In this document: positions 4,904-30,150 of the stretch, in pieces
Position numbering within the stretch: the stretch's first letter is position 1
How the letters are laid out: each line of letters starts with the position of its first letter
Notes under the pieces: generated by a model
Seen by the model: only the letters and a program-made list of their open reading frames with translations
What the model was told of the DNA's origin: nothing
Databases searched by the model: none
Position numbers and translations under genes: made by a program
NCBI GenBank assembly: GCA_019634165.1
Contig: JAHQVT010000008.1
Coordinates: 1 to 64,000, forward strand
Direction of reading: 5' to 3'
Source of the DNA: Rhodospirillales bacterium
Lineage (GTDB): Bacteria > Pseudomonadota > Alphaproteobacteria > Rhodospirillales > Thalassospiraceae
Length of the DNA stretch: 64,000 nucleotides

Positions 4904-4904
4904 T

Positions 4905-7660: not shown

Positions 7661-10615
7661 ATGAATGCTACGCCTCAACCGGGATCTGTGGTCCGCATCC
7701 GTTCAGCGACTTGGAAGGTTCTGGGAACCTCTAAGCTTAAGCTTGGTTACAAGGAAGTACATTGTCGTGGCTTGTCCGGACTTGTTCGAGATAAAGAAGC
7801 TAAGTTCATATGGGACATTGAGACAGATAAACGTGTGCTGGACCCGAGCGCGATAGGATTGGTTGCGGATGCTTCACCTGGCTTGATCGACACGAAACTT
7901 TATCTGGAGGCTGCTTTTAGGCACACTTCGACAACTACTCGAAGGCCTCTTGCTCTCGGACATGCGGCCATTGATGACTTAAAATTCCAACATTTACCGG
8001 TTGAGAGAGCGCTTGCACAAGATCGCGTGCGCCTTTTGATTGCTGATGACGTTGGACTGGGTAAGACCCTTGAGGCTGGTTTGATTGCGTCGGAGCTGGC
8101 TTTGAGGGGGCGGGCCGATAGAATCTTGGTTGTCACTACTCGTGCAATGTTGACGCAGTTTCAAAAGGAGTTCTGGACACGGTTTTCTATACCGTTATCC
8201 CGACTTGACAGCGCAGCTATTCGAAGAATGCGTAACAAAATTCCGGCTCATTATAACGTTTTTGATCAGTTTGATAGGTCGATTGTATCGATCGATACAC
8301 TCAAACGAGACGCACAAATCCGAAATGCTATTAGGCATTCTTATTGGGACTTGATCATTATCGACGAGGCCCATAACGCCGCAGTTCGAAAGAGTACAAC
8401 AGGTAGTAACTCGCAACGTGCAGAGCTGGCTCGCCTTTTGTCACGTAGAGCTGACTCTCTATTGTTGCTTACAGCCACCCCGCACGATGGATCGCATGAG
8501 AGCTTTGCCAGCCTCATAGAAATGCTAGATCCAACGCGGGTACCGGATCCTTCGAACTTACACAGAAGCGATATCGAAGACTTAGTTGTAAGAAGATTCA
8601 GGTCTTCGCCAGAAGTAGCCGCTGATATTGGGCGCAAGGTGCCAGCGCGCCAACTACACAGACGCTCCTTTCCCCTCAGCAGTGAGGAAGAGATCGCATA
8701 TCAGTCGATAGCTGACCTAAATCTTGATCTTGATGAAGAAGCTGGGCGAGGACGCGCAATTGATTTGTTTCGTACAACGTTGGCCAAGGCGGTGTTTTCT
8801 AGTCCAGCGGCTTGCGTTGAAACATTGGAACGGAGAATCAACGGTATTAAAGCTGGTATCGCGCGTGGCACACCTGCGGATCAAGAACGGCTTAGCTCGT
8901 TAGCTGAAAAAGTTTCAGCAATTGATACCAAAGAATTCAGCAAGTATCAGGATTTCCTTCAGCTATTGAGGGACATCAAGTGGACGGGAAAAGACCCTCG
9001 CGACCGACTGGTGATATTCTCAGAGAGGATTGCCACGGTCTCTTGGCTTTGTGATCGTTTGCGCACAGACTTGGTGCTGACTGAAGAGCAGATTGCCCGG
9101 GTTGATGGTGGTAGCGTCGAGGTAGATACACGAACTCAAGAGGTCATTGAACAGTTTGGCCAAGAACGTTCGCCTATTCGCATTCTAATTGCGTCAGATA
9201 TGGCTTCTGAGGGCTTGAACCTACATTTCCAGTGCCATCGCCTTGTGCATTTTGACTTGCCTTGGTCTCTTCTTCGCTTTCAGCAAAGAAATGGACGTAT
9301 TGATCGGTATGGGCAGGACCGAGCGCCACAAATCACCTACTTCGTCGGTGAAAGTACACATGACAAAGTTCGTCAAATGTGGGTGCTTGAGAAGCTCGTT
9401 GAGAAAGATGCTGCTGCACAGGAGGGCGTTGGAGATCCTGCAGTGTTCCTGGGCGTTGGGGATATTGAAGCAGAAGAAAATCTGGTAGCAGAAGCAGTTG
9501 CTGGCGGTGTTGGACCAGATGCCTTTGATGCAGAGATGAATACGCGAGCTGAGTCTGCAGCGAAGCATCAAAGCCTAGATGATGAGTTCGCTGCTCTGTT
9601 TGGCGATTATGCGACTTCCGAGCCGATAAAATTCAATGATGCTGCCGAGACCAATATCTCTCCGCCTCGGTTGTATCGGGATACCTTCACGTATACGACA
9701 GCGATGTTAAGGCGGCTGTCTCTCCCCGAAGAACGTATATTTCAGTCTATTCCTGTGGTCTCTGAAGAAGAGCGGTTGATCCGTTTAACGATCCCTGACG
9801 ATATGAAGGCTCGAGAAGGATTTGGGTACTCAAATGAGGGATCGGTCGATGGACGATATATGCCGGAAGAAGCTGTCGGGCCGGGGGGCCGGATTGAACT
9901 AACAGATCAATCACAGGTTATTAGCCGAGCCATTGAGCGTGCGAAGATGCAGGAGCGTTCCTGGCCGGTGATGCAGTACCTTTGGGATGGCCACCCAATT
10001 CTTGAATGGTTTGCTGACCGTACTTCAACCTTCTTCCCTGAGCATAGCGCACCCGTTGCGCCACTGCCTAGTCGTCTTTCGCCAGGAGAAATAGCTGTCG
10101 TGCTTCATGGCGCTATCCCGAACGCGAATGGTGCACCTGTAGTTGACCGTTGGGCTGTGGTTGTCAGAACGGCAGATGGCGGCATGCAAATTGACGAAGT
10201 TCCTGCTTTTCTTGAGCGTGTCCGTCTTGCGGAGGACACTCCAAGCCGTGCGATTGAAGAACTTTCATCTATTGAAGGTCTGATGCCGGTAGTTGTGGAC
10301 CGGTTCCAAACTCATCTTGTTGATTTACGGCGTTCTCGGGAGGCGGAAATCCAACGTGATTTGGACAAAGTTCTGGAACGTCTTAGCGCATTGGAGCGGC
10401 GTTTTAAGGCGCAACTAACTCTGGACCTTGGGGATATGGACGGCGGCACGAATCAATTGAGTTCGGCTGAGAAGCGAAAATTGACGCTTCGCCAAGCTGA
10501 AGAGGAAAAAATTGAACGAATGTTTCGTGATTGGACGGAATGGTTCGAGCGAACACGTTCCATGGTGTCCGATCCGAACCCGCACGTTGATGTAAAAGCA
10601 GTATTTGTAGGATAG
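7661..10615 (+). CDS. drmD: SNF2/RapA-type helicase, DISARM DrmD-like
   Basis: This 984-aa superfamily 2 ATPase is the first gene of the defence array. Walker A is ADDVGLGKTLEAGL (about 127-140), the DEAH box is IIDEAHNA (about 232-239), and motif III is LTATPHDGS (about 269-277). In the C-terminal lobe, SDMASEGLNLHFQ (about 512-524) and LLRFQQRNGRIDRYGQ (about 536-551) are the classic RapA/SNF2 motifs V and VI. Long helical segments follow. DrmD is the SNF2-like helicase that marks class 1 DISARM, where it stands upstream of the methylase, and that order is kept here. It probably translocates on DNA to help distinguish self from foreign DNA. Only 1-4 bases separate it from the next gene. The symbol rests on motif and context, not on a search. 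Confidence 0.82.
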   Translation: MNATPQPGSVVRIRSATWKVLGTSKLKLGYKEVHCRGLSGLVRDKEAKFIWDIETDKRVLDPSAIGLVADASPGLIDTKLYLEAAFRHTSTTTRRPLALGHAAIDDLKFQHLPVERALAQDRVRLLIADDVGLGKTLEAGLIASELALRGRADRILVVTTRAMLTQFQKEFWTRFSIPLSRLDSAAIRRMRNKIPAHYNVFDQFDRSIVSIDTLKRDAQIRNAIRHSYWDLIIIDEAHNAAVRKSTTGSNSQRAELARLLSRRADSLLLLTATPHDGSHESFASLIEMLDPTRVPDPSNLHRSDIEDLVVRRFRSSPEVAADIGRKVPARQLHRRSFPLSSEEEIAYQSIADLNLDLDEEAGRGRAIDLFRTTLAKAVFSSPAACVETLERRINGIKAGIARGTPADQERLSSLAEKVSAIDTKEFSKYQDFLQLLRDIKWTGKDPRDRLVIFSERIATVSWLCDRLRTDLVLTEEQIARVDGGSVEVDTRTQEVIEQFGQERSPIRILIASDMASEGLNLHFQCHRLVHFDLPWSLLRFQQRNGRIDRYGQDRAPQITYFVGESTHDKVRQMWVLEKLVEKDAAAQEGVGDPAVFLGVGDIEAEENLVAEAVAGGVGPDAFDAEMNTRAESAAKHQSLDDEFAALFGDYATSEPIKFNDAAETNISPPRLYRDTFTYTTAMLRRLSLPEERIFQSIPVVSEEERLIRLTIPDDMKAREGFGYSNEGSVDGRYMPEEAVGPGGRIELTDQSQVISRAIERAKMQERSWPVMQYLWDGHPILEWFADRTSTFFPEHSAPVAPLPSRLSPGEIAVVLHGAIPNANGAPVVDRWAVVVRTADGGMQIDEVPAFLERVRLAEDTPSRAIEELSSIEGLMPVVVDRFQTHLVDLRRSREAEIQRDLDKVLERLSALERRFKAQLTLDLGDMDGGTNQLSSAEKRKLTLRQAEEEKIERMFRDWTEWFERTRSMVSDPNPHVDVKAVFVG

Positions 10616-10619
10616 GGTG

Positions 10620-13600
10620 ATGGATCTAATAGGCATTGAAAACGAAGCCGAGTTCTTTCCATCTGGAACTCTGTCTGATGTTTTGAAGGAAGAATTGCAG
10701 GACATCATCTCCCGTTGGGCTGGGCTTGATAAGAACGAGCATCCTATTGAACGACTTGTTCGTGTTGCCGCAGCTGCTTCCGAAACGCTCCGACAGATCA
10801 GAAACTCTTCTGACAAAAAACGGCAAGTTCAACAGATCCGTGATGTCCATCAACAGATCCTGAGTTCTCTTGGTTATATATGGAGCCGTGACACGGTAAT
10901 AACGGCCTTAGATGGGAGCCCTCTAATTCCCGTGGTTGGTAGAGTTGCTGATAACTCCGGTCGCGACGCTTTATGGATTGTCGAAGCGCCTACTACAGAT
11001 ACCGAAGAAGCTGCAGATCCCCTCGGTGCGTGCTTCTCAAAGGAACAGTTTCCAGACGATCTCCTTGACCGGGCTTTGCTGAAGACGACTATCGAGGCTG
11101 TTCTTGCAGACGGAGTGTTTGAGCTTCCAGAAGGACCTCGTCATGTCCTTGTTCTTGGGCTATCTCAACTTGTTCTTATCGATAAACGCAAATGGCCAGC
11201 TCGTTCGGTGCTGCGCTTTGATCTGCAGGAAATATTTGCGCGGGCAGAACGCGATACGTTGTCGGTGATGGCTTGCCTTATTTCCCGTGAGGCGCGCGTG
11301 CCCGAGCAGGGTAAGCCGATTTCGGATCGTCTTGAAGAAGAAGCCCAACGCAACGCCAATGCCGTTACTGGATCGCTCAAGCGGACAGTTCGAGACGCGA
11401 TCGAGTTGCTAGGGCAGGAAGTGCTGGAGGTCACCGGGGGGAAATACCCTTCCAACTTTACGGAGTCAAGTCGCCGGGGCGTCTGGATTGATGGACCAGA
11501 TTTGTCCCGCGAATGCTTACGATTCATGTATCGGTTGCTATTTTTGTTTTATGCAGAGGCCAATCCTCGTCTCAAGTTACTGGACCTTCGCAATCCGATT
11601 TATGCAACTGGATATTCGCTCGAAAGCCTGCGAGAGCTGGAGTCAGTGCCCTTGCGATCTACATCGGATCGTGAGGGGACTTTCTTATGGGGCAGTCTTA
11701 AGCAAACACTTGACCTGCTCTATACGGGCTTGGACCTGATTGACGAAGAAAAAGGAACCGGATTGCGTCTCCCAGCGGTAAAGGTTTCTTTGCTTGATCC
11801 AGAAAGTACGCCCCTACTGAAAGCAGTTAGACTGAGGAATGAGGCGATCCAAAAAGTTGTCCGTCTTTTGTCTCTTCGTTCTACCGGTAAGAGTACGGGC
11901 CGTATATCTTATGCCAAGCTGGGCATAGGGCAACTGGGGGCTGTCTATGAAACTCTTATATCCTTTACTGGTGTCGTCGCAAAAACAGATTTGATTGAGC
12001 TAAAACCACGCAAAGGGCACTCGGTAGATAGCGAAGATGAGACAGTTGCCAGTGCTTCGAGTGAGGACGACGATCCAGAAGAAGATATTGCGTTCGAACA
12101 TGAAAACGAAAGCGCTGATGAAGTATTTCGGCGAGACAAAATCGACCCATTGGCTCCAAGCTGGTTTGTTCCGCGGGCCCGAATTGGTGAATTCAAGCCA
12201 GAGGAAGTTGTTTTTAACGGCCCTGAAGCAAGGGTGTACCCCAAAGGAACATTCATCTATCGGTTGGCTGGCCGTGACCGAGAAAAGTCTGCTTCCTATT
12301 ATACGCCAGAGCCGCTTGCCCGGTTGCTGGTAAAGCACGCGCTGATGGAGCGCTGCAAAGACTTAAAAGCGGATGAACTTCTTGACCTGAAAATCCTTGA
12401 ACCGGCAATGGGATCCGCTGCGTTCCTGGTTGAAACCACGAATCAGCTCGCCGATCTATATCTAGAGCGGAAACAAAAAGAGACCGAGCGGACAATCCCT
12501 CAGGAGAAAGTGGTTGTTGAGAAGCAGAAAGTTCGTGCGTTCATTGCGGATCGAAACTGTTTCGGGGTCGACCTGAACCCGATTGCTGTCGAACTTGGTG
12601 CAATATCTCTTTGGCTCAATAGCCTGCATGAGAGCGATTTTTCGCCTTGGTTTGGTGACCAGCTTCATGCTGGAAATTCTCTGATTGGCGCTCGTCGCGC
12701 ATCATATGCGCAATCTTCTTTAACGGCAAAAAAGAGGTCTGACCTGTGGTTCAATGCCAAACCAGATGAGATCGGCTGGAAGAATAAGCTGCCCGAAGGG
12801 CACGTATGGCAATGGCTTTTGCCCGCAAAGGATATGGCGAACTTCGAAAAGGATAAGTCTATTAAGCCATTTGCCGGAGACGCCCAGACGCAGATCAAAG
12901 TTTGGCGAGCAGGTGGTTTTTTCAACAAGCTTGAACCCCATGAGATAAAGCTCGTTCAGAAATTAAGCAAGATCGCCGAGCGCTTATTCGACGAAGTCGC
13001 CCGCGATCTGGCGAGAACCCGTGATGCGGCTAACGATGAGATTGTCATTTGGCCTGACAAAGTCATGGCTGGTAACAAGCGCATGGATTTTCGTGACAAG
13101 GCTCGGTTGAATGATCGCCTGACCGGGGCGGATCATGCCAGCAACACCCTTCCCTACAAGCGCCTTAAGACGGCGATGGACGCCTGGTGTGCCCTCTGGC
13201 TTTGGCCACTCGACAAAACAGACCTTTTGCCAAGTCGGGCAGAGTTTCTCCAAGGCATGGCGATGATCCTTGAAGGTGGTTTTACCTCTGACGGGGCACT
13301 TGCTGCACCGAGCTTTGAAGAATTTTCTGATCCAGAGCCAGACTTCCTTGACCGCCTTGAGCCCGACGCCCCTGCGCGTGATTTATTTAAAGCTGCTGCT
13401 AAACGGCAAGACGGATTGTTCCGGGAAACTAATGTAGAAGCGCTGATCGAGAGTTTTAATTGGTTGCAAACGGCAGTTGAGGTTGCTGAACGGGAGAAGT
13501 TTGTTCATTTTGATCTAATATTCGCCGATGTGATGAAGGCGCGGGGCGGGTTCGACGTGATTGTCGGGAACCCGCCATGGGCGAAACCGTCTTGGAACGA

Positions 13601-15566
13601 AGGTTTGGTGCTTGCTGACATAGATCCACTCTATGCCGGGCTTTCGGCATCAGACGCGAAGAAGATTCTGCCCGAGGTGTTACCAAAGGGGCCAGCCGTG
13701 CGGCGAGATGGACGAGTGGTTCCCGCAGTCCAGGCATTCCTTCAAGATTTCGTCTCCACGCGCGGTGCGATGGAGGTCACATCGTCAGAAGTCATGAACC
13801 CCTTTGCAGGGGGCGGGTCGAACAATCTTTACCGGTGTTTCATTGACTTGTCGTTCAGATTGGTCGCGCCGCAGGGATATGCGGCACTAATTCATCAAGA
13901 CGGACATTTGGGGGACCCGAATTCTGGGGCGTTTCGGCGCCATTGGTATGCACGGATTGCAAAGCATTTCGAGTTCATCAATCGAATGAAGTCACGGAAC
14001 TTCATGGAGGTGGATCACAACGTCCGATTCAGTCTGAACATCTATCGTGGCGACGTCGACGATATTCTTTTTGAAAAATTCACCTATGCCTTCACGGCTT
14101 CTCAAATCGAAGACTCTTATGCAGATCAGGACGGGATTGGCCCAGTCCCTAGCATAAAGAACGCCGAAGGCCACTGGGACACGCGTGGTCACCGTGATCG
14201 CGTGATCCGGATCGACTGGGAATCTCTTGCAGTAATCCATGCCTTGTCTGAGGAGGAGGCGGTGCCGGTTGAAGAAGCTCGGTTCATCCAGCCCTATTCG
14301 ACAAAGACACTTGACGTGTTTCGTCAGATGGCGCGGTTCCCTAAACTGGATGAGGCGATCCCGAAAATTGAGCGCACAGTGAGTACTGCGGCAGGTGAAC
14401 GCATAACAGAAATTCCGCTATGGCAGATGTCTGCACATTGGCACGAGGTTGGTGCGCAGAAAGACGGGACAATCAAGCGTGAAACCGCATTCCGTTCACC
14501 TGAACAGATGGTCCTTCAAGGACCTCTCATTCATGTAGGAAATCCGCTCTATAAAACACCTCGATCAGTAAGCCGCACCAACGCGGATTATGATGTGATC
14601 GATTTGGCGACTGCGCCTGACGATTACATTCCGCGTACCAATTATGGTCCGGCAGTCGATGTAAGTGAATACCGAATTCGGATGACGCGATGCAGATGGG
14701 ACCCGACGAAGAGTCATGCCGATTTCTATCGGTTGGCGTTTCGGAATATGATCGCGTTGAACGGCGAGCGTAGTTTGATAGCAGCACTTATCCCCCCGGG
14801 CATAGCTCACATCAATAAGGTCGAAAGTATCGCTTGCGAAAATGAAGTACATACACTGACGATACATTCTTTCGCTTGTTCCATTCCGTTTGATTATCTT
14901 GTCAAAGCAAATGGCCGAGGTGACTTATTCGCTTCCGACATAGCTCGTTGGCCATTTCCAGCTTTAGAAGCGACTGCTCGTCACCGCTCCCTCCGTCTCG
15001 CCTGCCTGACCTCGGCCTATACTGACCTCTGGAACCGCAACGCACCTGCACTAGATACTCTGCCCTGGTCTTCCCCTGATGCCCGTCTTTGTCTTGAGGG
15101 GCCGGTCGAAGGCCCTACAGCTTGGGACCGAACCGCGGGCCTAAGGACTGAATTCGCCCGCCGCATGGCACTGGTTGAAATCGATGTTCTGGTCGCCCAA
15201 GCGCTGGGCCTTACCCTCGATCAGTTGATCGAGATCTACCGGATATACTTCCCGGTTCTGCAGGAGAATGAGGCGGGCACTTGGTATGATCAAAACGGGC
15301 GCATTGTTTGGACGTCTTCCAGAGGTTTGCCTGGTGTCGGTTGGCTCGATGAGCGTGGGAGAAGTCCTGGACGTGCTGCGTGGGAGAAAATCCTTGCAGC
15401 GAAACCGCTTGAGCTGCGTTGTACTGCTATCGACGATACTATGCCCGGTGGTGCACGAGAGGTTGTTCGTCGCTTTGTCGGGCCCTTCACCCAATCTGAT
15501 CGCATTGAAGACTACAAGCGTGCTTGGGCGCATTTCGAACGGTTGAAATCAGAGGAGGCCGCTTGA
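10620..15566 (+). CDS. Very large adenine-specific DNA methyltransferase (Eco57I/DrmMI-like)
   Basis: This protein of about 1648 aa has an SAM-binding core. SASYYTPEPLARLLVKHAL (about 553-571) precedes motif I, LEPAMGSAAFLVE (about 593-605). Then come CFGVDLNPIAVELGAISLWL (about 643-662) and GDQLHAGNSLIG. The catalytic NPPW motif is FDVIVGNPPWAKPSW (about 979-993). The large insert between motif I and NPPW and the long C-terminal target-recognition part are typical of Eco57I-type gamma-class N6-adenine methylases. The first 540 residues have no clear motif. In DISARM the methylase protects host DNA. GTG at 10617 is an alternative start; AGGATAGG lies just upstream. It ends 1 base before the next gene. 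Confidence 0.85.
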   Translation: MDLIGIENEAEFFPSGTLSDVLKEELQDIISRWAGLDKNEHPIERLVRVAAAASETLRQIRNSSDKKRQVQQIRDVHQQILSSLGYIWSRDTVITALDGSPLIPVVGRVADNSGRDALWIVEAPTTDTEEAADPLGACFSKEQFPDDLLDRALLKTTIEAVLADGVFELPEGPRHVLVLGLSQLVLIDKRKWPARSVLRFDLQEIFARAERDTLSVMACLISREARVPEQGKPISDRLEEEAQRNANAVTGSLKRTVRDAIELLGQEVLEVTGGKYPSNFTESSRRGVWIDGPDLSRECLRFMYRLLFLFYAEANPRLKLLDLRNPIYATGYSLESLRELESVPLRSTSDREGTFLWGSLKQTLDLLYTGLDLIDEEKGTGLRLPAVKVSLLDPESTPLLKAVRLRNEAIQKVVRLLSLRSTGKSTGRISYAKLGIGQLGAVYETLISFTGVVAKTDLIELKPRKGHSVDSEDETVASASSEDDDPEEDIAFEHENESADEVFRRDKIDPLAPSWFVPRARIGEFKPEEVVFNGPEARVYPKGTFIYRLAGRDREKSASYYTPEPLARLLVKHALMERCKDLKADELLDLKILEPAMGSAAFLVETTNQLADLYLERKQKETERTIPQEKVVVEKQKVRAFIADRNCFGVDLNPIAVELGAISLWLNSLHESDFSPWFGDQLHAGNSLIGARRASYAQSSLTAKKRSDLWFNAKPDEIGWKNKLPEGHVWQWLLPAKDMANFEKDKSIKPFAGDAQTQIKVWRAGGFFNKLEPHEIKLVQKLSKIAERLFDEVARDLARTRDAANDEIVIWPDKVMAGNKRMDFRDKARLNDRLTGADHASNTLPYKRLKTAMDAWCALWLWPLDKTDLLPSRAEFLQGMAMILEGGFTSDGALAAPSFEEFSDPEPDFLDRLEPDAPARDLFKAAAKRQDGLFRETNVEALIESFNWLQTAVEVAEREKFVHFDLIFADVMKARGGFDVIVGNPPWAKPSWNEGLVLADIDPLYAGLSASDAKKILPEVLPKGPAVRRDGRVVPAVQAFLQDFVSTRGAMEVTSSEVMNPFAGGGSNNLYRCFIDLSFRLVAPQGYAALIHQDGHLGDPNSGAFRRHWYARIAKHFEFINRMKSRNFMEVDHNVRFSLNIYRGDVDDILFEKFTYAFTASQIEDSYADQDGIGPVPSIKNAEGHWDTRGHRDRVIRIDWESLAVIHALSEEEAVPVEEARFIQPYSTKTLDVFRQMARFPKLDEAIPKIERTVSTAAGERITEIPLWQMSAHWHEVGAQKDGTIKRETAFRSPEQMVLQGPLIHVGNPLYKTPRSVSRTNADYDVIDLATAPDDYIPRTNYGPAVDVSEYRIRMTRCRWDPTKSHADFYRLAFRNMIALNGERSLIAALIPPGIAHINKVESIACENEVHTLTIHSFACSIPFDYLVKANGRGDLFASDIARWPFPALEATARHRSLRLACLTSAYTDLWNRNAPALDTLPWSSPDARLCLEGPVEGPTAWDRTAGLRTEFARRMALVEIDVLVAQALGLTLDQLIEIYRIYFPVLQENEAGTWYDQNGRIVWTSSRGLPGVGWLDERGRSPGRAAWEKILAAKPLELRCTAIDDTMPGGAREVVRRFVGPFTQSDRIEDYKRAWAHFERLKSEEAA

Positions 15567-15567
15567 G

Positions 15568-21500: not shown

Positions 21501-21963
21501 AGGGGAAACGCGTCAAACGAAAGCAGCTTACATTGAGGTCTGGAGAGGACTCTGGCGTCTTGTAAACTTGTTTCATGGTTTTCGAGGTTTTCATGTGGAA
21601 ATCGATGGCCTGGATACACTGTCTCCACCAGATTCGCTGGAGGGCGCTGATTTGGTCGATGGCGGCATTTCATCTAGAGGATGGTTGGAAGCACGGGCAC
21701 TTTGTGACGATTGTTTCCACCCCTTGATCGACGCTCTGATAGCGGCAGGTGTTTCTGCGCCAGATCGGTTTGGCGACGACTTGATATGTGACGGTCGTGT
21801 TGTTGGCATGATCGAGTTTGGATGGTCTTTGGCAGGGGTGGCAGTGGCTGAGGAAGCCTACGACCATGTTGGGTGGTTTCTGGTTAGCTTTGACCCAGAA
21901 CAAGATATGGTCGGAAATACAGTTACAAGAGTATTGCAAGCACTAGAGGAAATACAGTCATGA
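15568..21963 (+). CDS. DEAD/DEAH helicase - DUF1998 - PD-(D/E)XK-like nuclease fusion (DrmA/DrmB-like)
   Basis: This 2131-aa multidomain protein starts with Walker A VATGTGSGKTESYL (about 96-109). The motif II position reads VVDEMHTFDGAQGAD (about 229-243), and GSSATLG follows at about 267-273. Several zinc-type Cys clusters follow (NCNRCG about 497, CPACG about 606, CDHCG about 963, CPSC with CCPRCG about 1378-1400). Motif VI is YVQRIGRSGRRDG (about 1080-1092). A DUF1998-type module with VPGGSGYL, and then CACNQDP with CYRC, lies at about 1615-1665. At about 1775-1830, RIDFLL, VVEMDGVEYH and a later DLLDRLMM resemble a Vsr/DUF559-type nuclease core. It apparently combines DrmA-like and DrmB-like functions with a nuclease. 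Four bases (ATGA) overlap with the next gene. Confidence 0.82.
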   Translation: MNPILLARHVEESLRELVQTTLNSSSRAFDGMVDRFLAEPANFIKGPWASVDMPFRQVDGAEDGTWRQPFAEVPLRFAPYQHQMDAFARLSGQAMQSTLVATGTGSGKTESYLWPILEHCRQQKGLPGIKAILIYPMNALASDQARRVAAAISSIPSLDGITAGIYADAEPQNATHEVTAESIITHRETMRRNPPDILLTNYKMLDYLLLRGRDKPLWQSNSPETLRFLVVDEMHTFDGAQGADLALLLRRVKQRLGTPERHLVCVGSSATLGVSEEAATELRQYAETIFGENFNAGSVIRESRKSPNEVFGEAEYVERPDPAMVHAALREAEDLNQPNAARRLAECLFPDKSDPDLSFIHEGDPSKISWRIELGARVLEHHLCQRALKIIAEHSGPASLDELSAGLSQVRVLRGWEPADNRALAELVIALVAWARSGSEEAPRPLFNVRLQMWIREMSRMVTNLPVLQEGGQRSEMDLVHGLDLDRNALRRTLPVVNCNRCGATAHVGRENAGSGSYWAPLDQLYEEFFDENGGDRIRLFYHDSIDRMVQASSTNGQIVKGMLDAETVVFKPSDHGELEPGPAAPVWMYNPNDGQGRIDRTCPACGQSRGLLLFGMRAARLTTGITGTLYTSLQNEEEAEAKPRFLMFSDSVQDAAHRAAVAETRNSLTVYQKALFTAIANADDRQMSLRDVIELVPETQLKALGPDNFTALFISKEQTWRRRYQELVQDGISISDPVFLEHMKLRLGWEYFVDLSYRAHFSHTLEVNGMVAADVPVRRLRDSAERLSNQLRNELPGAPAIDGDLLTQFLAGIVQRMRRQGSVAHKYLVNAVETSKGSRGLNWFAAAAQMGLARTGTLPAPDYRRGLSPSPVTLNSGPAGFERITRNHVSNWYRDWLFRVFGATNLQAATDPELIYQLALQRLEADGFIRKVDCLEGSYNHAWLLKPDQIMVSTATVAMICDHCGRKETTIAENSVVVVGSPCTRIGCRGHLQEAEKQNRPALRRALTSDRNHRVVAREHTGILEPKERLRIENGFINDEVSWAPNLISATPTLEMGIDIGDLSTLLLSSVPPEEANYVQRIGRSGRRDGNALNLVLANARSHDLQFWEDPSPMLAGQVHPPGVFLAAEEVLLRQVTAFTLDAYVATSVDVGDYGKVREVLKRRSTGEMDGFPIEWLALVNKHGAEFANTFLSKLPRDVQDRRDLAGRVRDYLTSNDEGSIGWRVGSAFDAASEERASLLEKRQEATRELERLRRRRAELTDEEFEKREKEISRDRTEINRFIRNGIDDVPVIKFLTDKGLLPNYSFPEEGVKLTSIISRRNDSARDEEGLLYLEYSRPASSALSEFAPGQFFYANGRQVQIERIDIGKEDLTVWTFCPSCSYVASRVEGPEISCCPRCGDEMWSDNGAHHEVVQLKSVISVDSEEKAVIRDLDQRDQRQFDRVLMPFHGPEHIALSWFTAQETGTPFGVEFIPNCAFRDFNFGPKSAFPGPRIAGDHRSSQPFRLCRYCGTVQKPSRNEDDRGTHPPSCKVSRDQELSRDKWETDVFLMRSFNTEAIRILIPVVGDADDDDLKSFVAAINLGMRQHFAGKVDHIRSAIYEARLDGLATVRSLYLYDAVPGGSGYLRQIGEHPETMRAVVSRAAQALRDCACNQDPAKNGCYRCVKPYRSQFGPGEPDRDRARQMMEAILQKWDSLQRTETGIDESIRGGLIESALEKRFLTALMDLYGEQALTPHVLSGGRRGFILRAGRPGSQKLWTIEPQVQINSRFHGLPKKRIDFLLTPIGGDGLKPIVVEMDGVEYHSATVAKDLLDRLMMIRSGEVNVWTLSWKDLDPDEGIGINLLSEQVLGPQKIGALGRVLAHPSFSHLADQIQGFQNDSALNSLQRVLDGETDRVRLALSVLTRALITTGRVFDDLPRADKLSDEGREFLLAPGLLEHCGTSGLDLYLASQQIRPTEWLEKDQDIRAVLRAELPAQGETRQTKAAYIEVWRGLWRLVNLFHGFRGFHVEIDGLDTLSPPDSLEGADLVDGGISSRGWLEARALCDDCFHPLIDALIAAGVSAPDRFGDDLICDGRVVGMIEFGWSLAGVAVAEEAYDHVGWFLVSFDPEQDMVGNTVTRVLQALEEIQS

Positions 21964-24140
21964 CAGGTAGCACCACGAAGCGTGTTTCATATGACATCGG
22001 TTGCATGAAAAGTCTCAGAAAGCTGCCTGACAAGGTGATCATCCGTTTCATGGACATGATGACCCGCTACATGACTGATCCGTCTGGAAATGGACTAAAC
22101 CTCGAGACAGTAGAGGGGGCGAAGGACAGTTCCATCAAGTCACTTAGGGTTGACCAAGGATACCGTGCCATTGCGTTTGAAGTTGGCAAGGATATTATGT
22201 TCGTGCACGTCAATGAACACGATAAAGCATATCGTTGGGCGCTCGGACGACGCATCAAGTTAGACCCGGCAACGAATAGGATACGTGTAGTCGAGGAGAT
22301 TGACGTAGCGGAACAGTCTATAAGGGACGTACGTGAATCTAAACCGCATTTGTTTGCGGAGGTGTCGGATAGGAGGTTAAAGGCGCTTGGGGTTGCCGAG
22401 GAAGAGCTTGTTGCCATCAGGGAACTGGAGACAATTGAAGCACTCGAGACTTCTGAAGAACGGTTTGATCCACTTAGCTATCAAGTTCTCTATGCTATTG
22501 CGGCAGGATACTCAGACGAGGATGTCTACGCGCTGATAGGCATAGCTGACGATGCAAACGTCCATTCCGAGACACAGACGCAAAATCTAGATTTCAATCG
22601 TTTGATAGAAACAGAAGAAAGTCGTCAGACGATCTTCATCCCGGAATCTGAAGCAGAACTGCGACGAGTGTTCGAGGAAGGACTTGAAGGATGGCGAGTT
22701 TTCCTTCACCCAGAGCAGCGTAAGCTCGCCTACCGGAACTATAACGGTCCTGCCATGGTGCGTGGCGGCGCCGGGACAGGTAAGACGGTGGTAGCTATGC
22801 ATCGGGCCAAGCACTTAGCGGACCAGATCAAGAACGATGCGAGCCGGATGGGACAGAGAGTTCTTCTGACCACTTTCACTACTAGTCTTGCCCACGACAT
22901 AGAGGCAAACCTCAGGACTCTTTGTCCAGAGCATCTTGACGCCCGCCCACCACGTATTGAGGTGATCAACTTGGACCGATGGGTTTCTCAGTTTCTCAAG
23001 CGCAAAAACTTTGCTCGCGAAGTTGCTTTCTTTGGAGAGGCTCGTGAACGGTTGGACCAGATTTGGCAGGAAGTGTTCGACGACCATCAGTTGCCGGAGG
23101 AGCTCTCTGAGCCCTTTGTTAAGTCAGAATGGGCTCAGATAGTTCAGGCCAAAGGTATCACAGACAAGCGAACTTACCTTAAGGCTTCCCGTGCTGGTCG
23201 CGGGACCCCTCTCGACCGGCGCAAGCGTGCTGAACTTTGGGACTTATTCGAGGATTACAGAGCCCGTATAATTAGCGAGGGGCTAGCTGAGCCCGATGAC
23301 GCTTATAGGGAGGCGACTGATATCCTTTGCTCCGAGGCCCCCAACCTTCCCTACGCGTCAGTAATAGTGGACGAAGCACAGGATATGGGCGAACAAGCGT
23401 TTCGACTGGTTCGGGCGATCGTTCCGGTTAACCCGCACGGAGAACAGAACTCTCTCTTTATTGTTGGAGACGCACATCAAAGGATCTACGGTCGTCGAGC
23501 GAGCATGTCATCCTGTGGGATTGAGGTGCGAGGTCGATCTCGCAGACTGCGTTTGAACTACCGCACTACGCAAGAGATCCGGGCATGGGCTGTTTCCATT
23601 CTTGAGGGAGTGAGCGTTGACGACCTCGATGATGGAACTGACACACTTCGAGGTTATGTAAGCTTGCTGCACGGAGTGTCGCCTGAACTGGTCAGCTGTG
23701 CTTCTGAGGTATTGGAACTAGAGAAACTAGTGTCTTGGATCCAATCGCTTCCCTCAGATCAGATCCGCCTATCGGATATCGGCGTACTTTGTGCGCGTAA
23801 AAACGATACAAAACGCATACAAGAAGTACTTCAAACAGCGCAAATCGATACTGTAATTCTTCAGGCCGGTGCAGATGACAGATCAGTTCCGGGGGTGCGG
23901 GTCACGACCATGCATAGGGCAAAGGGGCTAGAGTTTTTTGCGGTGGCAATCCCGTTCATGTCCGCTGCTTCATTCCCTCCGCCAGGAGCACTCAGGGCTG
24001 CGGTAGATGCGGCTGACCGAGAAGATATAATTACCCAGTATCGTTCCCTGCTTCATGTTGCGGCGACACGAGCAAAAAAGGCCCTACTGGTTTCGTGGTC
24101 GGGTGAACCCACAAACATTATGAGCGCACCAAAAAATTGA
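21960..24140 (+). CDS. UvrD/SF1 helicase with N-terminal RelE/ParE-like domain
   Basis: In this 726-aa protein, residues about 5-105 look like a RelE/ParE-type toxin fold: KSLRKLPDKVIIRFMDMM, then SIKSLRVDQGYRAI, then VHVNEHDKAYRWA. After a linker, an SF1 helicase begins, with Walker A MVRGGAGTGKTVVAMHRA (about 262-279), the Walker B site VIVDEAQDMGEQAF (about 465-478), motif IV-like LNYRTTQEIR and the C-terminal TTMHRAKGLEF (about 649-659) and AATRAKKALLVSW. RelE-like domains fused to UvrD helicases recur in genomes and may bind RNA or DNA without being toxins. It is the fourth gene of the array, translationally coupled to the preceding one. Textbook DISARM lacks such a protein. Confidence 0.85.
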   Translation: MTGSTTKRVSYDIGCMKSLRKLPDKVIIRFMDMMTRYMTDPSGNGLNLETVEGAKDSSIKSLRVDQGYRAIAFEVGKDIMFVHVNEHDKAYRWALGRRIKLDPATNRIRVVEEIDVAEQSIRDVRESKPHLFAEVSDRRLKALGVAEEELVAIRELETIEALETSEERFDPLSYQVLYAIAAGYSDEDVYALIGIADDANVHSETQTQNLDFNRLIETEESRQTIFIPESEAELRRVFEEGLEGWRVFLHPEQRKLAYRNYNGPAMVRGGAGTGKTVVAMHRAKHLADQIKNDASRMGQRVLLTTFTTSLAHDIEANLRTLCPEHLDARPPRIEVINLDRWVSQFLKRKNFAREVAFFGEARERLDQIWQEVFDDHQLPEELSEPFVKSEWAQIVQAKGITDKRTYLKASRAGRGTPLDRRKRAELWDLFEDYRARIISEGLAEPDDAYREATDILCSEAPNLPYASVIVDEAQDMGEQAFRLVRAIVPVNPHGEQNSLFIVGDAHQRIYGRRASMSSCGIEVRGRSRRLRLNYRTTQEIRAWAVSILEGVSVDDLDDGTDTLRGYVSLLHGVSPELVSCASEVLELEKLVSWIQSLPSDQIRLSDIGVLCARKNDTKRIQEVLQTAQIDTVILQAGADDRSVPGVRVTTMHRAKGLEFFAVAIPFMSAASFPPPGALRAAVDAADREDIITQYRSLLHVAATRAKKALLVSWSGEPTNIMSAPKN

Positions 24141-24401
24141 GAGCATTTATGATCTCAATGATAATGGATCGGTCCCTTGAGTTTGCTAGAGCAGTCGATA
24201 ATGTCGGTCCAGGTCCGCTGAAGATCAGTCGTTCTTGCATGCTAAACCGTATGGTGATTGCCTGGCGATCCTGATCGCTTCGCCGGACGTGTTTCAAGCC
24301 GAGTACAAGAAGATGGTTCAGATTTAAGATGTTTCTGTGGAAGCGAAAACGATAGCAGCGATGGGCAATGCCACCAACACTGCGACTGGGAGGGATGGTG
24401 G
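24141..24401 (+). other. Gap inside the defence array with possible gene remnants
   Basis: This 260-base break in an otherwise tightly packed operon contains no complete gene. One frame from about 24208 to 24327 reads SFLHAKPYGDCLAILIAS and continues to EYKKMVQI before a TAA, without a start codon. Another frame from 24150 gives 42 codons that end in TGA. The pieces look like a decayed gene end. GGGAGG at 24389-24394 is the ribosome site for the next gene. Base composition changes across this gap. Confidence 0.45.
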
Positions 24402-25991
24402 ATGAGTGTGGATCAAATTGAAGTAAACCATGTCGCGCTGCCCGAGTGGACAGAGTATAGGAAGAAGAACGGGCTCGATCCCTTGGGGATGCAAAACAGC
24501 AGCGTCAGTCTGTATCAAACTTTCCTGCCCGGCATCTCAAACGTGACTTTGAGGATGCGCTACTATGGTCTTTATCCATGGCTCGCGCATCGATACGCGA
24601 AAGAGATTGGCGATACGAACCCTGAAAGCTGGAAGCGCATCGTCAGACGGGCCGAGGCTCTATATGCACTGATCGCCGCTGCCAATGGCGGTGAAACTGG
24701 TGTTGCTGGAACCGAATGGGCTTTGCGTACATTAGAGGTCACCCACGGCGATACGATTGAATTCGCCAGCGCGACCGAGCCAGGCAGTGAGACATACTAC
24801 CTCAAACAGGCTTGGGGAGCTTTTGGCGCAGCGTATCGCAGCCAGCTCTTCGAGATTGGAGCTTTTGATCCGACCGAGTTCGGGGAAATTCCGCTCCCTA
24901 AAAGGCCACATGGTCAAGAGTTGGCCAATGGGTTTCAAAATTCTTTGGATAGCGTTGCCGATAAATTCTTCGAAACCCTCCAACGTGGCCATGTCCAAAG
25001 AGGCGAACTCACTAAGTTCGCACCAGTGCTGCCGTCGGCAATTGCTCCCGATAGCAAGGAACGCAGCATTTATGAGAGCGTCTTGTTGAGCGATGCCAGC
25101 GACCCGAAGCCGGGCGATCTGTCCCGAAAGCTTAGTATCCAGCTGATCCTGAAAATCACCGAGCTTTTGGAGCGTGAGCCACGCGCAGATGAAATCCGCT
25201 GGGTGCTCTACGCGGGGCAGGACCAGCTAGGTACGCCGCTCGTCCTCGATGATGGCGGCCTGCAAGCGCAGCGCGCGCGTTGGTGGGTCTACCATGCTAA
25301 CGATCTCTGCCACATTGCGTTTGAAGCTTTGCTGAAATTCTCGCTGGATACGCTGTCAGAGCACCCGGCGGGTCTCAGCCTGGCACGCCTTATCGGAGAT
25401 TGTGCAGAGGCGATCCTCTCAGAATTCGAGCAAAGACCGACCAGCTTGGCAGCGTTGATCGAAAGTACCAAAGCGACAGAGAACGCATTCAACCCAGACG
25501 ATGCGGGTTCCGAGTTTTCTCTTGCGCGTAACATTATCCGCGCAGGGCGAAGTGATGCGAGCGTGTGCACGCCCGAGACAGCGGCAGACGCAATCAGGCT
25601 GCTCGCGATCTTGCATCAGCGCATCGACGATACTGGAGCCGACCTGAATGAATCGTTTGGCGGGTTTAATCCTGATGCGTTTCGGTCACTGCTCAGCGAA
25701 AAGCGGTTCCTAGATCGCTACCGCGATGAGGACTTCCAGCAGATCGTTGAGCGTCTGTTTGAAGAACGCATCGTGCGCAGACATTTGTGGGTGGCACTAC
25801 GGAAGCTCCGCCATCAAGGCGACTACACGTTCTTGATTGAAAACGATGATGGGAAGCTGCGACTTCGCGAAAAAGATGGACCGGTCTTCACCAATCCTCG
25901 TCTCGGCCCTGCCATCACTTTTCTAAAGGATATTGGATTGCTGGGTGAGAATGGCCTCACCGCCAAAGGCCGGGAGGCTGTAGGCGTATGA
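24402..25991 (+). CDS. Conserved hypothetical protein of the defence array
   Basis: This 529-aa protein starts at MSVDQIEVNHVALPEW, 7 bases after a GGGAGG ribosome site; the frame is open further upstream but without protein-like sequence. I do not recognise a catalytic motif. The N-terminal segment has LDPLGMQNSSVSLYQTFLPG followed by SNVTLRMRYYGLYPWLAHRY. A pattern of this kind (start of a domain, LPG, RYYG, P-W/Y) reminds me of DUF6361-type proteins found near restriction and defence genes, but this is a weak match. The rest is mixed helical, with a short winged-helix-like end (FTNPRLGPAITFLKDIGLLG). Its TGA overlaps the ATG of the PLD gene, so the two are coupled. Base composition is visibly more G+C-rich than in the four preceding genes. 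Confidence 0.75.
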   Translation: MSVDQIEVNHVALPEWTEYRKKNGLDPLGMQNSSVSLYQTFLPGISNVTLRMRYYGLYPWLAHRYAKEIGDTNPESWKRIVRRAEALYALIAAANGGETGVAGTEWALRTLEVTHGDTIEFASATEPGSETYYLKQAWGAFGAAYRSQLFEIGAFDPTEFGEIPLPKRPHGQELANGFQNSLDSVADKFFETLQRGHVQRGELTKFAPVLPSAIAPDSKERSIYESVLLSDASDPKPGDLSRKLSIQLILKITELLEREPRADEIRWVLYAGQDQLGTPLVLDDGGLQAQRARWWVYHANDLCHIAFEALLKFSLDTLSEHPAGLSLARLIGDCAEAILSEFEQRPTSLAALIESTKATENAFNPDDAGSEFSLARNIIRAGRSDASVCTPETAADAIRLLAILHQRIDDTGADLNESFGGFNPDAFRSLLSEKRFLDRYRDEDFQQIVERLFEERIVRRHLWVALRKLRHQGDYTFLIENDDGKLRLREKDGPVFTNPRLGPAITFLKDIGLLGENGLTAKGREAVGV

Positions 25992-28456
25992 GGCTTTACG
26001 AACGTTTTGCAGATAAAGGGTATCACACAAGTATAGCGACCACCTTCGGCATCGATTTCGACGCCTATGAGAACATCGTACTTCCCCGGCTGCGCGGCGC
26101 TGGCTGCCGCAACAATATGGTGCTGGCAGATGGAAGAATGCTGACGCACGCGCTCGTCGGGGCATCGGCGCTGCCGCGACAGGCCGGTCGATACTACACA
26201 GCAACGGGCGCGCGCGCGATGGGCCTATTCCATCCGAAGATATTTTTTCAGGTCGGGCGCAAAGGTGGCCGCCTTATCATTGGCTCGGCCAATATGACGG
26301 CGGCTGGACTTGCCGGAAATCTTGAACTTGTGGCGATGATGGAGTGCGAGGCAGACGATAGCGGCGCGCAGCGCCTGATCGCTCAAGCCTGGCAGTATCT
26401 CTCCGGGCTGATCGATCCTGCCGATCCAATGGTTCCGGCGCAGCGCGACTGGATGCTTGGCCGTGCAGCATGGCTGCGCAGCGCTGCTCCTGCGACCGGC
26501 GTTGTCAGTCTCAGCGATGGAACCGAGGCGGCGCTTCTGATTGCCGATAGGCAAAGCGGCATCGGCAGGCATTTTTCTGACCTTATTGACGAGCCCGTAA
26601 AGCGGCTGACAGTGATCTCTCCTTATTGGGACGAAAGGCTCGCGGCACTTTCCTATCTGGATGAGCGGCTCAGCCCGCTTGAAAATGCTGCGATCATCGA
26701 CCGGGAGACAGGTCTATTTCCCGGAGACGCGGCAAATACCATTCGCAACCTGAAGCTCTATCACCGAGAGAAGTTCGAAGCGGGACGCTTTATCCACGCC
26801 AAGGCGGTGATCGCCGAGACGGACAGTTTCGATCACTTGTTGCTCGGGAGTGCCAACTGCACGGTGGCTGCACTTGGCAAAGCCGAGGTTGCGGGAAGCA
26901 ACGACGAGGCATGCATCTACCGGCGCTTGCCTGCTGGAACAGCCATCGACGCCCTTGGTCTTTCGAAGCTACTTCAGGATGAAAAACGGATTGAGCCGAG
27001 TGAGCTGGAACCATTCGGGCTGGAGGACGACATACCACTGGACGCGCTGGCAAACCAGCATCCGGGGACATTTTCCTTGCGCGGAACCACATTGACCTGG
27101 CAGCCATCTGCAAAAGTCGCCGCGCCAGAAGATCAGGCAATCGAGCTTCTAGGCGCAACTGGGAGCGCGCTCGATATTTCGCCCAAGAAGATCGAGGACA
27201 GTAAGCCAACTGTCCTGCGGTATCAGGTTGAAATCGAGGAGGAGCTTCCCGCCTTTGCAAAGGTTGCCGGTGCACAAAACTTCCCGCCAGCCATCGTCAC
27301 ACAAGTGGATATGCTGCATACGGCCATTCGGGAAACCCACTCCAAGAGAGTTGAAAACATCTTGGCACAGCTGGACGGCGAAACCGAAGCTAGCTTGGCC
27401 TTGCTGGAGGTTCTGGATGTGCTGGAACAGATCGAGGAACCGGATAGCAATGCGCCCGGCGAAGGCGTTTCAATCCCCAAAGCGCAGCGGCAGGATGATG
27501 GCGACAATGCTCAAGGCTACAAGAAGCTCAGCTATGCGGAATTTGTTGCCGGAAGACGCCCGCATCACGCTGGTCCGATCTTGCACAACAGCCTCGGCGG
27601 CAGCGATGTCTCAATCGTCCGGGGCTTTCTAAACAGGATCGTTGGGCTAAACGCGCTGCAAATCGCAGCCGAGGACGACGATGAGGACTACCTGAAAGCT
27701 GCATTCGATCTTGGCGACGAGACCGAGGATGCGAGCGGGGCTCTTGAAGCGGGCGAAGAATTCGACCGGCCCTCGGCGCCACTGGATGAACAGGCCATCG
27801 AAGCAGAAGAGCGCCGCCAAAAGGCGAGGCAGCGCAAAGCAACCAAGGACCAGATTGTCGCCGCTGTTTCGAACTTTTCCAAACGGATTGACCTCAAGCA
27901 AGCCAAGGGTCAGCTCTCGACCCGTGATTTCCTCCGCCTCCGTGCCCTTCTAATGATTATCTGCGCTGCCGCATGGAAAGGAACCGATAAAACAAATCAA
28001 AATGGCCGGACATCTTTGCAGGTTTTGCCGGTGGAAGGCGACCCTCACAGCTGGCCGGTCGTCATCGGCCGCCTTCTCTTCAAGGTCTTCGGCGGCACAA
28101 ATCCCGCCATCCGGAGCCCGGAACCCGACGCCGACCAACTGCCTGCCGACCTTATCGAATGCTGGGCGACGTGCTTCTGGTGTCTTCAAGCCTGCCTGTC
28201 GGCCCCTGTGTCGCGCACCGAGGCGGACAGGATCGAAAAATACATAAAGCCGCTTGCTGTAGAGACTTACCAGCTGACGTTTCTGTCAGCACAAGGATTT
28301 CTAGATCAGTCTGTTGTCTCCGTGATGGATGCAATGAACAAACAGTATTCTGAGCGCCTTGGTATTGATCCAAACGTTGTCTTAAGCAAACACAAAGCGT
28401 GTGCGGACACGCAACTAGAACTGACCGAATCAGATATGTCGGCGGGTAAGGCTTAG
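25988..28456 (+). CDS. Phospholipase D-like (HKD) nuclease-type protein of the defence array
   Basis: This 822-aa protein has two HKD half-sites. The first, GLFHPKIFFQVGRKGGRLII, is followed by GSANMTAAGL (residues about 79-108). The second is GRFIHAKAVIAE followed by LLLGSANCTVAALG (about 264-296). Each has HxK and GSxN, as in PLD-family phosphodiesterases, which pair two such sites for phosphodiester cleavage through a phospho-His. The remaining 500 residues are of unknown fold, with an acidic stretch (about 560-610). DISARM has a small PLD protein, DrmC, and this one is far longer. It is last in the operon and faces the relaxase gene, with 81 bases between their ends. I infer a nuclease role. 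Confidence 0.82.
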   Translation: MRLYERFADKGYHTSIATTFGIDFDAYENIVLPRLRGAGCRNNMVLADGRMLTHALVGASALPRQAGRYYTATGARAMGLFHPKIFFQVGRKGGRLIIGSANMTAAGLAGNLELVAMMECEADDSGAQRLIAQAWQYLSGLIDPADPMVPAQRDWMLGRAAWLRSAAPATGVVSLSDGTEAALLIADRQSGIGRHFSDLIDEPVKRLTVISPYWDERLAALSYLDERLSPLENAAIIDRETGLFPGDAANTIRNLKLYHREKFEAGRFIHAKAVIAETDSFDHLLLGSANCTVAALGKAEVAGSNDEACIYRRLPAGTAIDALGLSKLLQDEKRIEPSELEPFGLEDDIPLDALANQHPGTFSLRGTTLTWQPSAKVAAPEDQAIELLGATGSALDISPKKIEDSKPTVLRYQVEIEEELPAFAKVAGAQNFPPAIVTQVDMLHTAIRETHSKRVENILAQLDGETEASLALLEVLDVLEQIEEPDSNAPGEGVSIPKAQRQDDGDNAQGYKKLSYAEFVAGRRPHHAGPILHNSLGGSDVSIVRGFLNRIVGLNALQIAAEDDDEDYLKAAFDLGDETEDASGALEAGEEFDRPSAPLDEQAIEAEERRQKARQRKATKDQIVAAVSNFSKRIDLKQAKGQLSTRDFLRLRALLMIICAAAWKGTDKTNQNGRTSLQVLPVEGDPHSWPVVIGRLLFKVFGGTNPAIRSPEPDADQLPADLIECWATCFWCLQACLSAPVSRTEADRIEKYIKPLAVETYQLTFLSAQGFLDQSVVSVMDAMNKQYSERLGIDPNVVLSKHKACADTQLELTESDMSAGKA

Positions 28457-29668: not shown

Positions 29669-30087
29669 GATTTGGCCTGTTTGCGTTTGCGTTTGCGTTT
29701 GCGTTTGCGTTTGCGTTTGCGTTTGCGTTTGCGTTTGCTAGGCTGAAGCTGATCGCGGATCTCGCCAATGACGGCCTTCAGGTCTGCTTGGGTTGTTTCG
29801 ATGTCACGGACCAGGCCGTCAAATTTCTTGAGCAGATCAGCCGAAAGCGGTTCATCCAAGGCCAGCTTAAACAGGTTGCCCAAGCGTGCCTGATCGGCAT
29901 TGACCTTGAGAAGATCACGAATGCCCTGCCATGCAGCAAAGTCTGCGGCACTGGGCAATTTGGCATTCATCAGCAGGCGCTTCAGAAGCTCTGAGCGCGA
30001 CAAGCGCATTTGATGGGCAAGCTGATCGATGCGCGCTTTCTCTTCGTCGTTCAGATAGGTCTTGATGACGTGTCGTTCGGTGGCCAT
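29665..30087 (-). CDS. mobC: MobC-like ribbon-helix-helix relaxosome protein with (KR)n tail
   Basis: This 140-aa protein starts at MATERHVIKTYLNDEEKARI, 6 bases after GGGAG. The first 45 residues form a ribbon-helix-helix DNA-binding unit (VIKTYLNDEE, then MRLSRSELLKRLLM), as in MobC/NikA accessory proteins that bind oriT and recruit the relaxase. A helical middle part (LLKKFDGLVRDIETTQADL) is followed by a tail of nine or more Lys-Arg pairs encoded by a hexanucleotide repeat. The charged tail probably strengthens DNA contact and can vary in length. It is coupled to the relaxase gene by ATGA. Confidence 0.85.
   Translation of the reverse strand: MATERHVIKTYLNDEEKARIDQLAHQMRLSRSELLKRLLMNAKLPSAADFAAWQGIRDLLKVNADQARLGNLFKLALDEPLSADLLKKFDGLVRDIETTQADLKAVIGEIRDQLQPSKRKRKRKRKRKRKRKRKRKQAKS
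29683..29736 (+). repeat. Hexanucleotide microsatellite GCGTTT x9
   Basis: Nine perfect tandem units of GCGTTT lie within the 3' end of mobC and code for Lys-Arg pairs on the minus strand. Because the unit is six bases, slippage alters protein length by two residues per unit and never shifts the frame. Confidence 0.95.
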
Positions 30088-30114
30088 AGCACGCTCCCGG
30101 CATGAGAAGAGGGT

Positions 30115-30141
30115 GCCGGTGGCGTACATCGCGCCACCGGC
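30115..30141. repeat. Perfect 10-bp inverted repeat upstream of mobC (candidate oriT hairpin)
   Basis: GCCGGTGGCG (30115-30124) and CGCCACCGGC (30132-30141) are exact inverse copies with a 7-base loop. They lie in the 63-base gap between the ArdC-primase stop and the mobC start. MOBP origins often lie just upstream of mobC/relaxase and carry such a hairpin. No U-run follows, so a simple terminator is less likely. No clear YATCCTGY nick sequence was found beside it. Confidence 0.5.
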
Positions 30142-30150
30142 GCTCAAAGA

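Follow-up and report, generated by a model that had tools for sequence, protein, structure and literature searches.

Six adjacent genes of a Rhodospirillales bacterium: a probable ARMADA Type II array and a separate Azaca-like gene pair

We analyzed a window of 64,000 nucleotides, the beginning of a 376-kb contig (JAHQVT010000008.1) from a Rhodospirillales bacterium of the Thalassospiraceae. In this window, an earlier note had singled out six neighboring genes between positions 7661 and 28456 as a DISARM-related defense array with a non-standard composition. All six open reading frames (ORFs) were present on the plus strand at the positions and lengths that it had claimed. We judge it very probable that they are two adjacent modules lying beside conjugation genes, namely, the armABCD genes of ARMADA Type II (genes 1 to 4) and a separate Azaca-like pair without ZacC (genes 5 and 6). 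The features, with their predicted products, are as follows.

7661 to 10615, plus strand: armA (gene 1), SNF2/RapA (BrxHII/DrmD-like) helicase, 984 amino acids; 37.6% identical to Escherichia coli ArmA, with partial DrmD matches
10617 to 15566, plus strand: armB (gene 2), PglX-like N6-adenine methyltransferase, 1649 amino acids, GTG start; Eco57I/N6_Mtase Pfam matches, 37.7% identical to ArmB
15568 to 21963, plus strand: armC (gene 3), YprA/DruE-like helicase with a fused MZB (DUF1998) domain and a C-terminal Vsr-like PD-(D/E)xK region, 2131 amino acids
21960 to 24140, plus strand: armD (gene 4), RelE-like N terminus fused to a UvrD/GajB-like helicase, 726 amino acids; UvrD Pfam match, 39.5% identical to ArmD
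24141 to 24401, plus strand: gap between the modules, 261 bases
24402 to 25991, plus strand: gene 5, helical protein whose N-terminal part resembles ZacA/DUF6361, 529 amino acids; PADLOC ZacA match
25988 to 28456, plus strand: gene 6, ZacB-like protein of the phospholipase D (PLD) family, 822 amino acids; PADLOC ZacB match (5.5e-17) and Tdp1 fold match

Genes 1 to 4 and ARMADA Type II

Judged by their sequences, genes 1 to 4 (7661 to 24140) are a further member of the already published ARMADA Type II, given their order, similar lengths, 33 to 40% identity, and retention of all of the residues tested in that system. As described in PMC12458937 (Bell et al. 2025), ARMADA Type II consists, in order, of a BrxHII-like helicase, a PglX-like methylase, a YprA-like helicase, and a GajB-like helicase with a RelE-like fusion, and in E. 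coli deletion of any one of these genes abolishes its protection against phage. The window proteins aligned over their full length, and in the same order, with ArmA to ArmD of E. coli ATCC 8739, at a global identity of 32.8% for ArmC and the values listed above for the other three. Eight of the eight catalytic residues mutated in that work, which in E. coli were shown to be essential or to contribute, are kept: K135 and D235 of armA (the mutated K136 and D236 of ArmA), G599 and the N985 of NPPW in armB, K108 and D232 in armC, and K275 and D471 in armD; these were mapped via the ATCC 8739 proteins, the published mutants having been made in the NCTC 12900 copy. Haematobacter, Martelella, and Gemmobacter plasmids carry closer ARMADA Type II copies, at 68 to 80% identity. 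The window array differs from the E. coli system in its degree of identity to it and in having conjugation genes on one side and a serine recombinase on the other. On the Haematobacter plasmid, an additional annotated hypothetical gene of 849 bp stands between armB and armC (10728 to 11576 of locus L081).

The domain calls of the earlier note for all of the genes to which it gave one (SNF2, adenine methylase, DUF1998 helicase, UvrD, and PLD) agreed with Pfam, which placed SNF2 in gene 1, N6_Mtase/Eco57I in gene 2, DEAD together with MZB/DUF1998 in gene 3, and UvrD in gene 4. The MZB match covers residues 1580 to 1666 of gene 3, so that helicase and DUF1998 do share one 2131-amino-acid chain. 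PADLOC returned DrmD for gene 1, type IIG and DrmMI-type methylases for gene 2, DruE as the best match of gene 3 (4.7e-101), and NERD+UvrD and GajB-like helicases for gene 4. The Vsr-like region at the end of armC was assigned without a profile match, from the description in PMC12458937 and inspection of the sequence. The claimed RelE-like/UvrD fusion stood by profile for its UvrD half; the RelE part of gene 4 had no match in Pfam (E ≤ 0.1) or NCBIfam, and we assigned it from the full-length alignment to E. coli ArmD and the same paper.

Genes 1 and 2 share with class 1 DISARM the pairing of an SNF2 helicase with an N6-methyltransferase. In contrast, genes 1 to 4 hold helicase and DUF1998 in one protein where DISARM, according to PMC12458937, has two; the main helicase, gene 3, is nearest DruE of Druantia rather than DrmA; there is an additional RelE-UvrD gene; and no PLD gene of DrmC size occurs among the six. 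Membership in class 1 DISARM was rejected because there are no separate DrmA and DrmB genes, the 2131-amino-acid chain being a helicase plus MZB. The earlier note had also compared the PLD protein with DrmC, giving it over three times the size; a reading of it as an enlarged DrmC was rejected as well, since gene 6 scored 23.9 bits against the 133-bit NCBIfam DrmC cut-off and matched ZacB of Azaca better than any other profile. Its broader idea of a DISARM variant or sister survives for genes 1 to 4 in the form of an already published relative, ARMADA Type II, and is not supported for genes 5 and 6.

What is published on the E. coli system, together with the catalytic residues that are kept, suggests a mechanism for the window array. 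ArmB, an adenine methyltransferase, would probably mark self DNA, while the motors of ArmA, ArmC, and ArmD would locate phage DNA that is unmarked or abnormal and process it. Cutting of this DNA would fall to the putative C-terminal nuclease region of ArmC, and the host cell would not be killed. As another natural ARMADA Type II with close copies on alphaproteobacterial plasmids, the array helps find what is conserved in the system.

The spacing within the window bears on where the array ends. Genes 1 to 4 follow one another at 1 base, 1 base, and then a 4-base overlap (armC/armD), as the earlier note had indicated for these four, and gene 5 begins 261 bases later, itself overlapping gene 6 by 4 bases. 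The best start of gene 5 is the ATG at 24402; an upstream TTG at 24258 would give 577 amino acids. GC content at third codon positions (GC3) is 0.43 to 0.51 in genes 1 to 4 versus 0.59 to 0.62 in genes 5 and 6. One weak sigma-70-like match (1 versus 0.3 expected) lies at 24137 to 24165, overlapping the last bases of gene 4, and no terminator-like site was found in the gap.

A recurring gene pair related to Azaca

By their distribution, genes 5 and 6 do not look like part of the ARMADA Type II array, because 9 of the 11 ARMADA Type II loci whose downstream flank was read lack them and they form an adjacent pair of their own in 60 of 68 other loci. The 11 downstream flanks were those of the window, genomes G241, G629, G445, and G539 (whose contig holds only the end of armD), E. 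coli ATCC 8739, and five plasmids, a subset of the 74 with an ArmD match; they were searched by tblastn at E ≤ 1e-4, with the G241 variant added as a query in one of the searches. The pair was present in the window and G241. Nine ArmD matches above 480 bits, a cut-off of our own, were taken as ARMADA Type II and the other 16 set aside; a profile of gene 5 found a relative in two of these nine genomes and in none of the other seven, with some genomes incomplete and contig ends cutting the flank in four. No plasmid was common to the 26 ArmD records of at least 36% identity, among the 40 of 74 matches listed, and the 15 plasmids with gene 5. Conversely, an ARMADA Type II block was not seen in the examined flanks of any of the 68 gene 5 loci, these flanks not exceeding 10 kb per side for genome loci and being far shorter in some. 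Weaker matches to single Arm proteins (25 to 32%) were traced to DrmD-like or ARMADA Type I-like genes in L007, L011, L022, L046, and L049, and others occurred in L014, L019, and L041. In no other locus examined did the six genes occur in the window's order, so the same array proposed by the earlier note was found only here, its four-gene core being already catalogued as ARMADA Type II, which is largely the outcome that the note itself had named as speaking against its proposal; a fixed six-gene sister of DISARM is thus not supported by the flank surveys.

The 68 gene 5 loci comprise 61 from genomes scanned at one per species and 7 of the 15 plasmids. Gene 6 was detected by tblastn in 63 of them. 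Adjacent gene 5 and gene 6 ORFs were found in the 60 loci mentioned, 52 with the exact 4-base overlap; a few of the 60 have ORFs that are split, shortened, or cut by a contig end (L035, L048, L055, and L067). The remaining eight are accounted for by a contig edge (L040, L044, L065, L066, and L069), a gene 5 fragment (L070), and loss of gene 5 by the ORF picker (L043 and L052). The distance matrices of the two proteins correlated at r = 0.98 over 40 shared rows, a value reached in 0 of 2,000 permutations, and genes 5 and 6 therefore travel together. The gene 5 alignment kept 43 of 48 rows, L046 being left out for a stop codon and L013, L043, L052, and L068 for caution. Most occurrences of the pair are in Alpha- and Betaproteobacteria, with more distant ones in Bacteroidota; of the 385 genomes in the class sample, 4 contained gene 5. 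Neither gene had a match in PHROGs, and no phage record contained gene 5. Some gene 6 copies are shortened or broken, such as one of 417 amino acids beside a full-length gene 5 (L055, 11503 to 12756) and one in three pieces (L035).

The 529-amino-acid gene 5 protein matched neither Pfam nor NCBIfam at E ≤ 0.1, in line with the earlier note, which had called it unknown. Its AlphaFold2 (AF2) model is helical (predicted local distance difference test [pLDDT], 85.5; predicted template modeling score [pTM], 0.85), and Foldseek found no relative of this model in PDB (best E, 0.12) or among viral structures (best E, 0.32). A PDB sequence search with the profiles of both proteins returned unrelated proteins (best E, 0.92 and 0.12). 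For gene 6, the PLD match in Pfam reached 28.1 bits, slightly over the 27-bit cut-off, and the model (pLDDT, 79; pTM, 0.63) matched Tdp1 (E, 1.5e-8; probability, 1.00; template modeling [TM] score by target, 0.47). The sequence contains two H-K-N-E half-sites, H82, K84, N102, E113 and H270, K272, N290, E307, and all eight residues are invariant in 44 of 44 aligned sequences, rows selected for long matches to the exclusion of shortened or cut copies. In the first half-site, the spacing of these residues is 2, 20, and 31, which we take to agree with the residues of Tdp1 and BfiI. Gene 6 shares its Tdp1-like predicted fold with PLD enzymes of the Tdp1/BfiI type and differs from them in an additional beta region, a disordered linker, a helical C terminus, and a conserved partner gene.

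The names ZacA, ZacB, and ZacC are those of the Azaca system, reportedly described by Millman et al. 2022. The PADLOC ZacA profile matched eight of eight gene 5 family members tested (E ≤ 1; best, 1.5e-5), and the ZacB profile matched eight of eight gene 6 family members (E ≤ 0.001). A profile search of 190 genomes identified true ZacA in four, besides a weak match in the window's own. In profile comparisons against these four true Azaca loci, gene 6 matched ZacB (E, 6.9e-11; probability, 97%) and gene 5 matched ZacA (E, 1.8e-4; probability, 48%), and the cross-controls gave no match (E, 0.36 and 0.27). As in Azaca, a ZacB-type PLD gene directly follows the A-type gene, the likeness lying in the PLD part of gene 6 and in the N terminus of gene 5. 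The identity is very low, however, and gene 5 measures 529 versus 392 to 412 amino acids and gene 6 822 versus 617 to 667 (longest ORFs). ZacC followed ZacB in four of four true loci, cut by a contig end in two, whereas in the 68 pair loci there were only motif matches of 43 to 65 residues, in two loci, a search that a very divergent ZacC might escape. DUF6361 matched true ZacA at 9.9e-92 and gene 5 not at all at E ≤ 0.1. Genes 5 and 6 thus appear, from these comparisons, to be an Azaca-like two-gene variant that fails the definition of Azaca on ZacC and DUF6361, and we rejected them as ordinary Azaca on the same two counts. A review (PMC10952713) lists Azaca as containing a PLD-like domain. 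The models of PADLOC 2.0.0, Pfam, and NCBIfam do not name the pair as a system, and a ZacAB-like pair without ZacC was not described in the titles and abstract beginnings searched, a literature of which subscription journals or the supplements of PMC12458937 may mention one.

In our preferred reading, genes 5 and 6 form a separate, translationally coupled module related to ZacA-ZacB. For gene 6, we predict a PLD phosphodiesterase that has both half-sites on one chain and would cut DNA without metal through a covalent histidine intermediate, and gene 5 is its predicted recognition or control partner. We tentatively propose, at somewhat less than even confidence, that the two genes make up an antiphage module without a name so far, in which a nuclease of the Tdp1/BfiI type, on a single chain, is joined by a protein of unseen fold. 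Such a module would be kin to Azaca without a helicase of its own, whether lost or never gained, and would act alone or borrow the translocase of a neighbor (type I restriction-modification [RM], Hma, DISARM, Mokosh, Zorya, or ARMADA). This tightly coupled pair with variable neighbors is the fresher of the two objects: were it to protect alone, it would be a compact new defense system, and were it to need a neighbor, it would allow the idea that defense islands contain swappable effectors to be tested directly.

Neighbors of the pair and alternative readings

The neighbors of the pair vary, and include type I RM, Hma, DISARM-like, Zorya, Mokosh, SoFic, and ARMADA Type I-like and Type II genes. 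Defense markers, scored leave-one-out, occurred in 13 of 51 loci versus 0 of 34 control stretches (P = 6e-4). The 51 were what remained of the 68 without duplicates (L026, L062, and L063) and loci under 15 kb; among the controls, L154 was excluded as too short, and five requests matched no stretch. PADLOC was run on 20 neighbors chosen by eye, a selection from which no rate is derivable. It identified HmaB and HmaC in L053, with HmaC 3 bases upstream of the pair; DrmD in L022 and L007; SoFic in L013; an OLD-like ATPase in L046; MkoA and MkoB in L032, with MkoB about 450 bases from the pair on the same strand; and ZorD in L004, about 350 bases away on the same strand. A large superfamily 1 (SF1) helicase-nuclease with a partial MkoA match was present in L010 (31 bases from the pair) and L051, and one of the same type, by similarity to that of L010, overlaps the pair by 4 bases in L018. 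Several of the 20 had no PADLOC match (one each in L007, L064, L047, L033, and L028). Type I RM genes were annotated in L003 and L009 and recognized by similarity in L018, L021, L027, L030, L043, and L056, with HsdR overlapping the pair by 17 bases in L030. ARMADA Type I-like arrays (in order, YprA carrying MZB, SNF2, and N6-methyltransferase) adjoin the pairs of L046 and L049, on the same strand in one (L200, 4740 to 16659) and divergently in the other (L202, 5894 to 18244). In seven loci, a shared cluster contains an annotated recombinase. On a Myroides plasmid (L009, 8593 to 17278), the pair is flanked by hsdS and hsdR of a type I RM operon, inside which it lies.

Several of our observations weigh against two separate modules or against a defensive role for the second. 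The distant alphaproteobacterium G241 (L113 and L114) has a gene 5-gene 6 pair beside an ARMADA Type II array of 45 to 61% identity; together with the ARMADA Type I-like arrays adjoining the pair in two further loci, this may indicate a functional link of the pair to ARMADA. The G241 pair is convergent, lies a few hundred bases downstream, and is 26 to 27% identical to that of the window, and since it is so divergent and faces its array, the two arrangements look to have arisen independently. The 261-base gap alone does not demonstrate two transcripts. No marker was seen in 38 of the 51 loci, for example, Sphingopyxis L061, and the 34 controls are arbitrary genome positions rather than mobile regions, with markers drawn partly from the test loci under leave-one-out only. 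In addition, the match of gene 5 to ZacA is weak, spanning about 80 residues near its start, and that of gene 6 to Tdp1 is loose (root mean square deviation, 9.6 over 428 columns; 13% identity for the top match).

The G241 and ARMADA Type I-like neighbors also speak for a single system in which a recognition/nuclease pair is an extra effector of ARMADA Type II, the whole being a sister of DISARM. The rarity of gene 5 in the class sample adds to this, as the other ARMADA Type II genome there, G241 (ArmD, 54%), nevertheless has the pair next door; the other 15 ArmD matches of that sample, at 29 to 33% and beginning after the RelE part, were not taken as ARMADA Type II. We consider a single system quite improbable, given the nine flanks and seven strong-ArmD genomes without the pair, the lack of a plasmid common to the records compared, the gap, the differing GC3, the opposite orientation in G241, and an E. 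coli ARMADA Type II that, according to PMC12458937, works as four genes. Ordinary Azaca, to which the A-B order and the weak to moderate profile matches would point, is just as improbable or slightly more so in the face of the missing ZacC and DUF6361.

Two further readings concern what genes 5 and 6 do and leave genes 1 to 4 as ARMADA Type II. The pair could be a plug-in effector for many translocase-based systems, as DrmC is for DISARM, with the partner finding the DNA and the pair cutting it. Its operon-like positions beside HmaC, the SF1 helicase-nuclease (L010 and L018), HsdR (L030), and type I RM genes (L009), and its same-strand positions farther from ZorD and MkoB, favor this reading, which we nonetheless regard as unlikely because most loci are without a marker and systems mix by chance in defense islands. 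Somewhat less likely still is a service to the carrier mobile elements, in plasmid competition or DNA-end repair, instead of phage defense. It would suit the 15 plasmid records, the recombinase cluster shared by seven loci, and a Tdp1-like fold that could indicate repair, but not the excess of defense markers over the control stretches or the kinship to Azaca. Our preferred reading thus remains that of an ARMADA Type II array next to a separate Azaca-like pair.

Genomic setting of the window

Both ends of the six genes border on what look like mobile-element genes. Directly downstream, at 28538 to 38337, are genes for a MobP relaxase, an ArdC/Toprim (ArdC-like) protein, a coupling protein, and a type IV secretion system ATPase, the relaxase coming after gene 6 on the opposite strand. 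Upstream, at 3644 to 7259, genes for a UmuC-like polymerase and an S24 peptidase (UmuD-like) stand beside that of a large serine recombinase, whose similarity to CcrB is weak and below the cut-off. An integrated conjugative element or plasmid likely surrounds the array. A search for the conjugation module among near relatives gave a single match of 2%, and a tRNA scan of the window found none.

A search of 60 relatives, including 29 members of the same genus, found gene 5 in one, and full-length ArmC was present in 1 of the 29 genus members; in both cases, this was the window's own genome (G000). Three congeners (G022, G009, and G016; L072 to L079) carry other YprA-like helicases in frames of 1776 to 2041 amino acids, 32 to 38% identical over short stretches, which possibly belong to other defense systems. 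Farther along the window, at 50625 to 54590, a gene for a 1321-amino-acid SMC/AAA_23 ATPase lies within a patch of low GC content (0.45 to 0.47).

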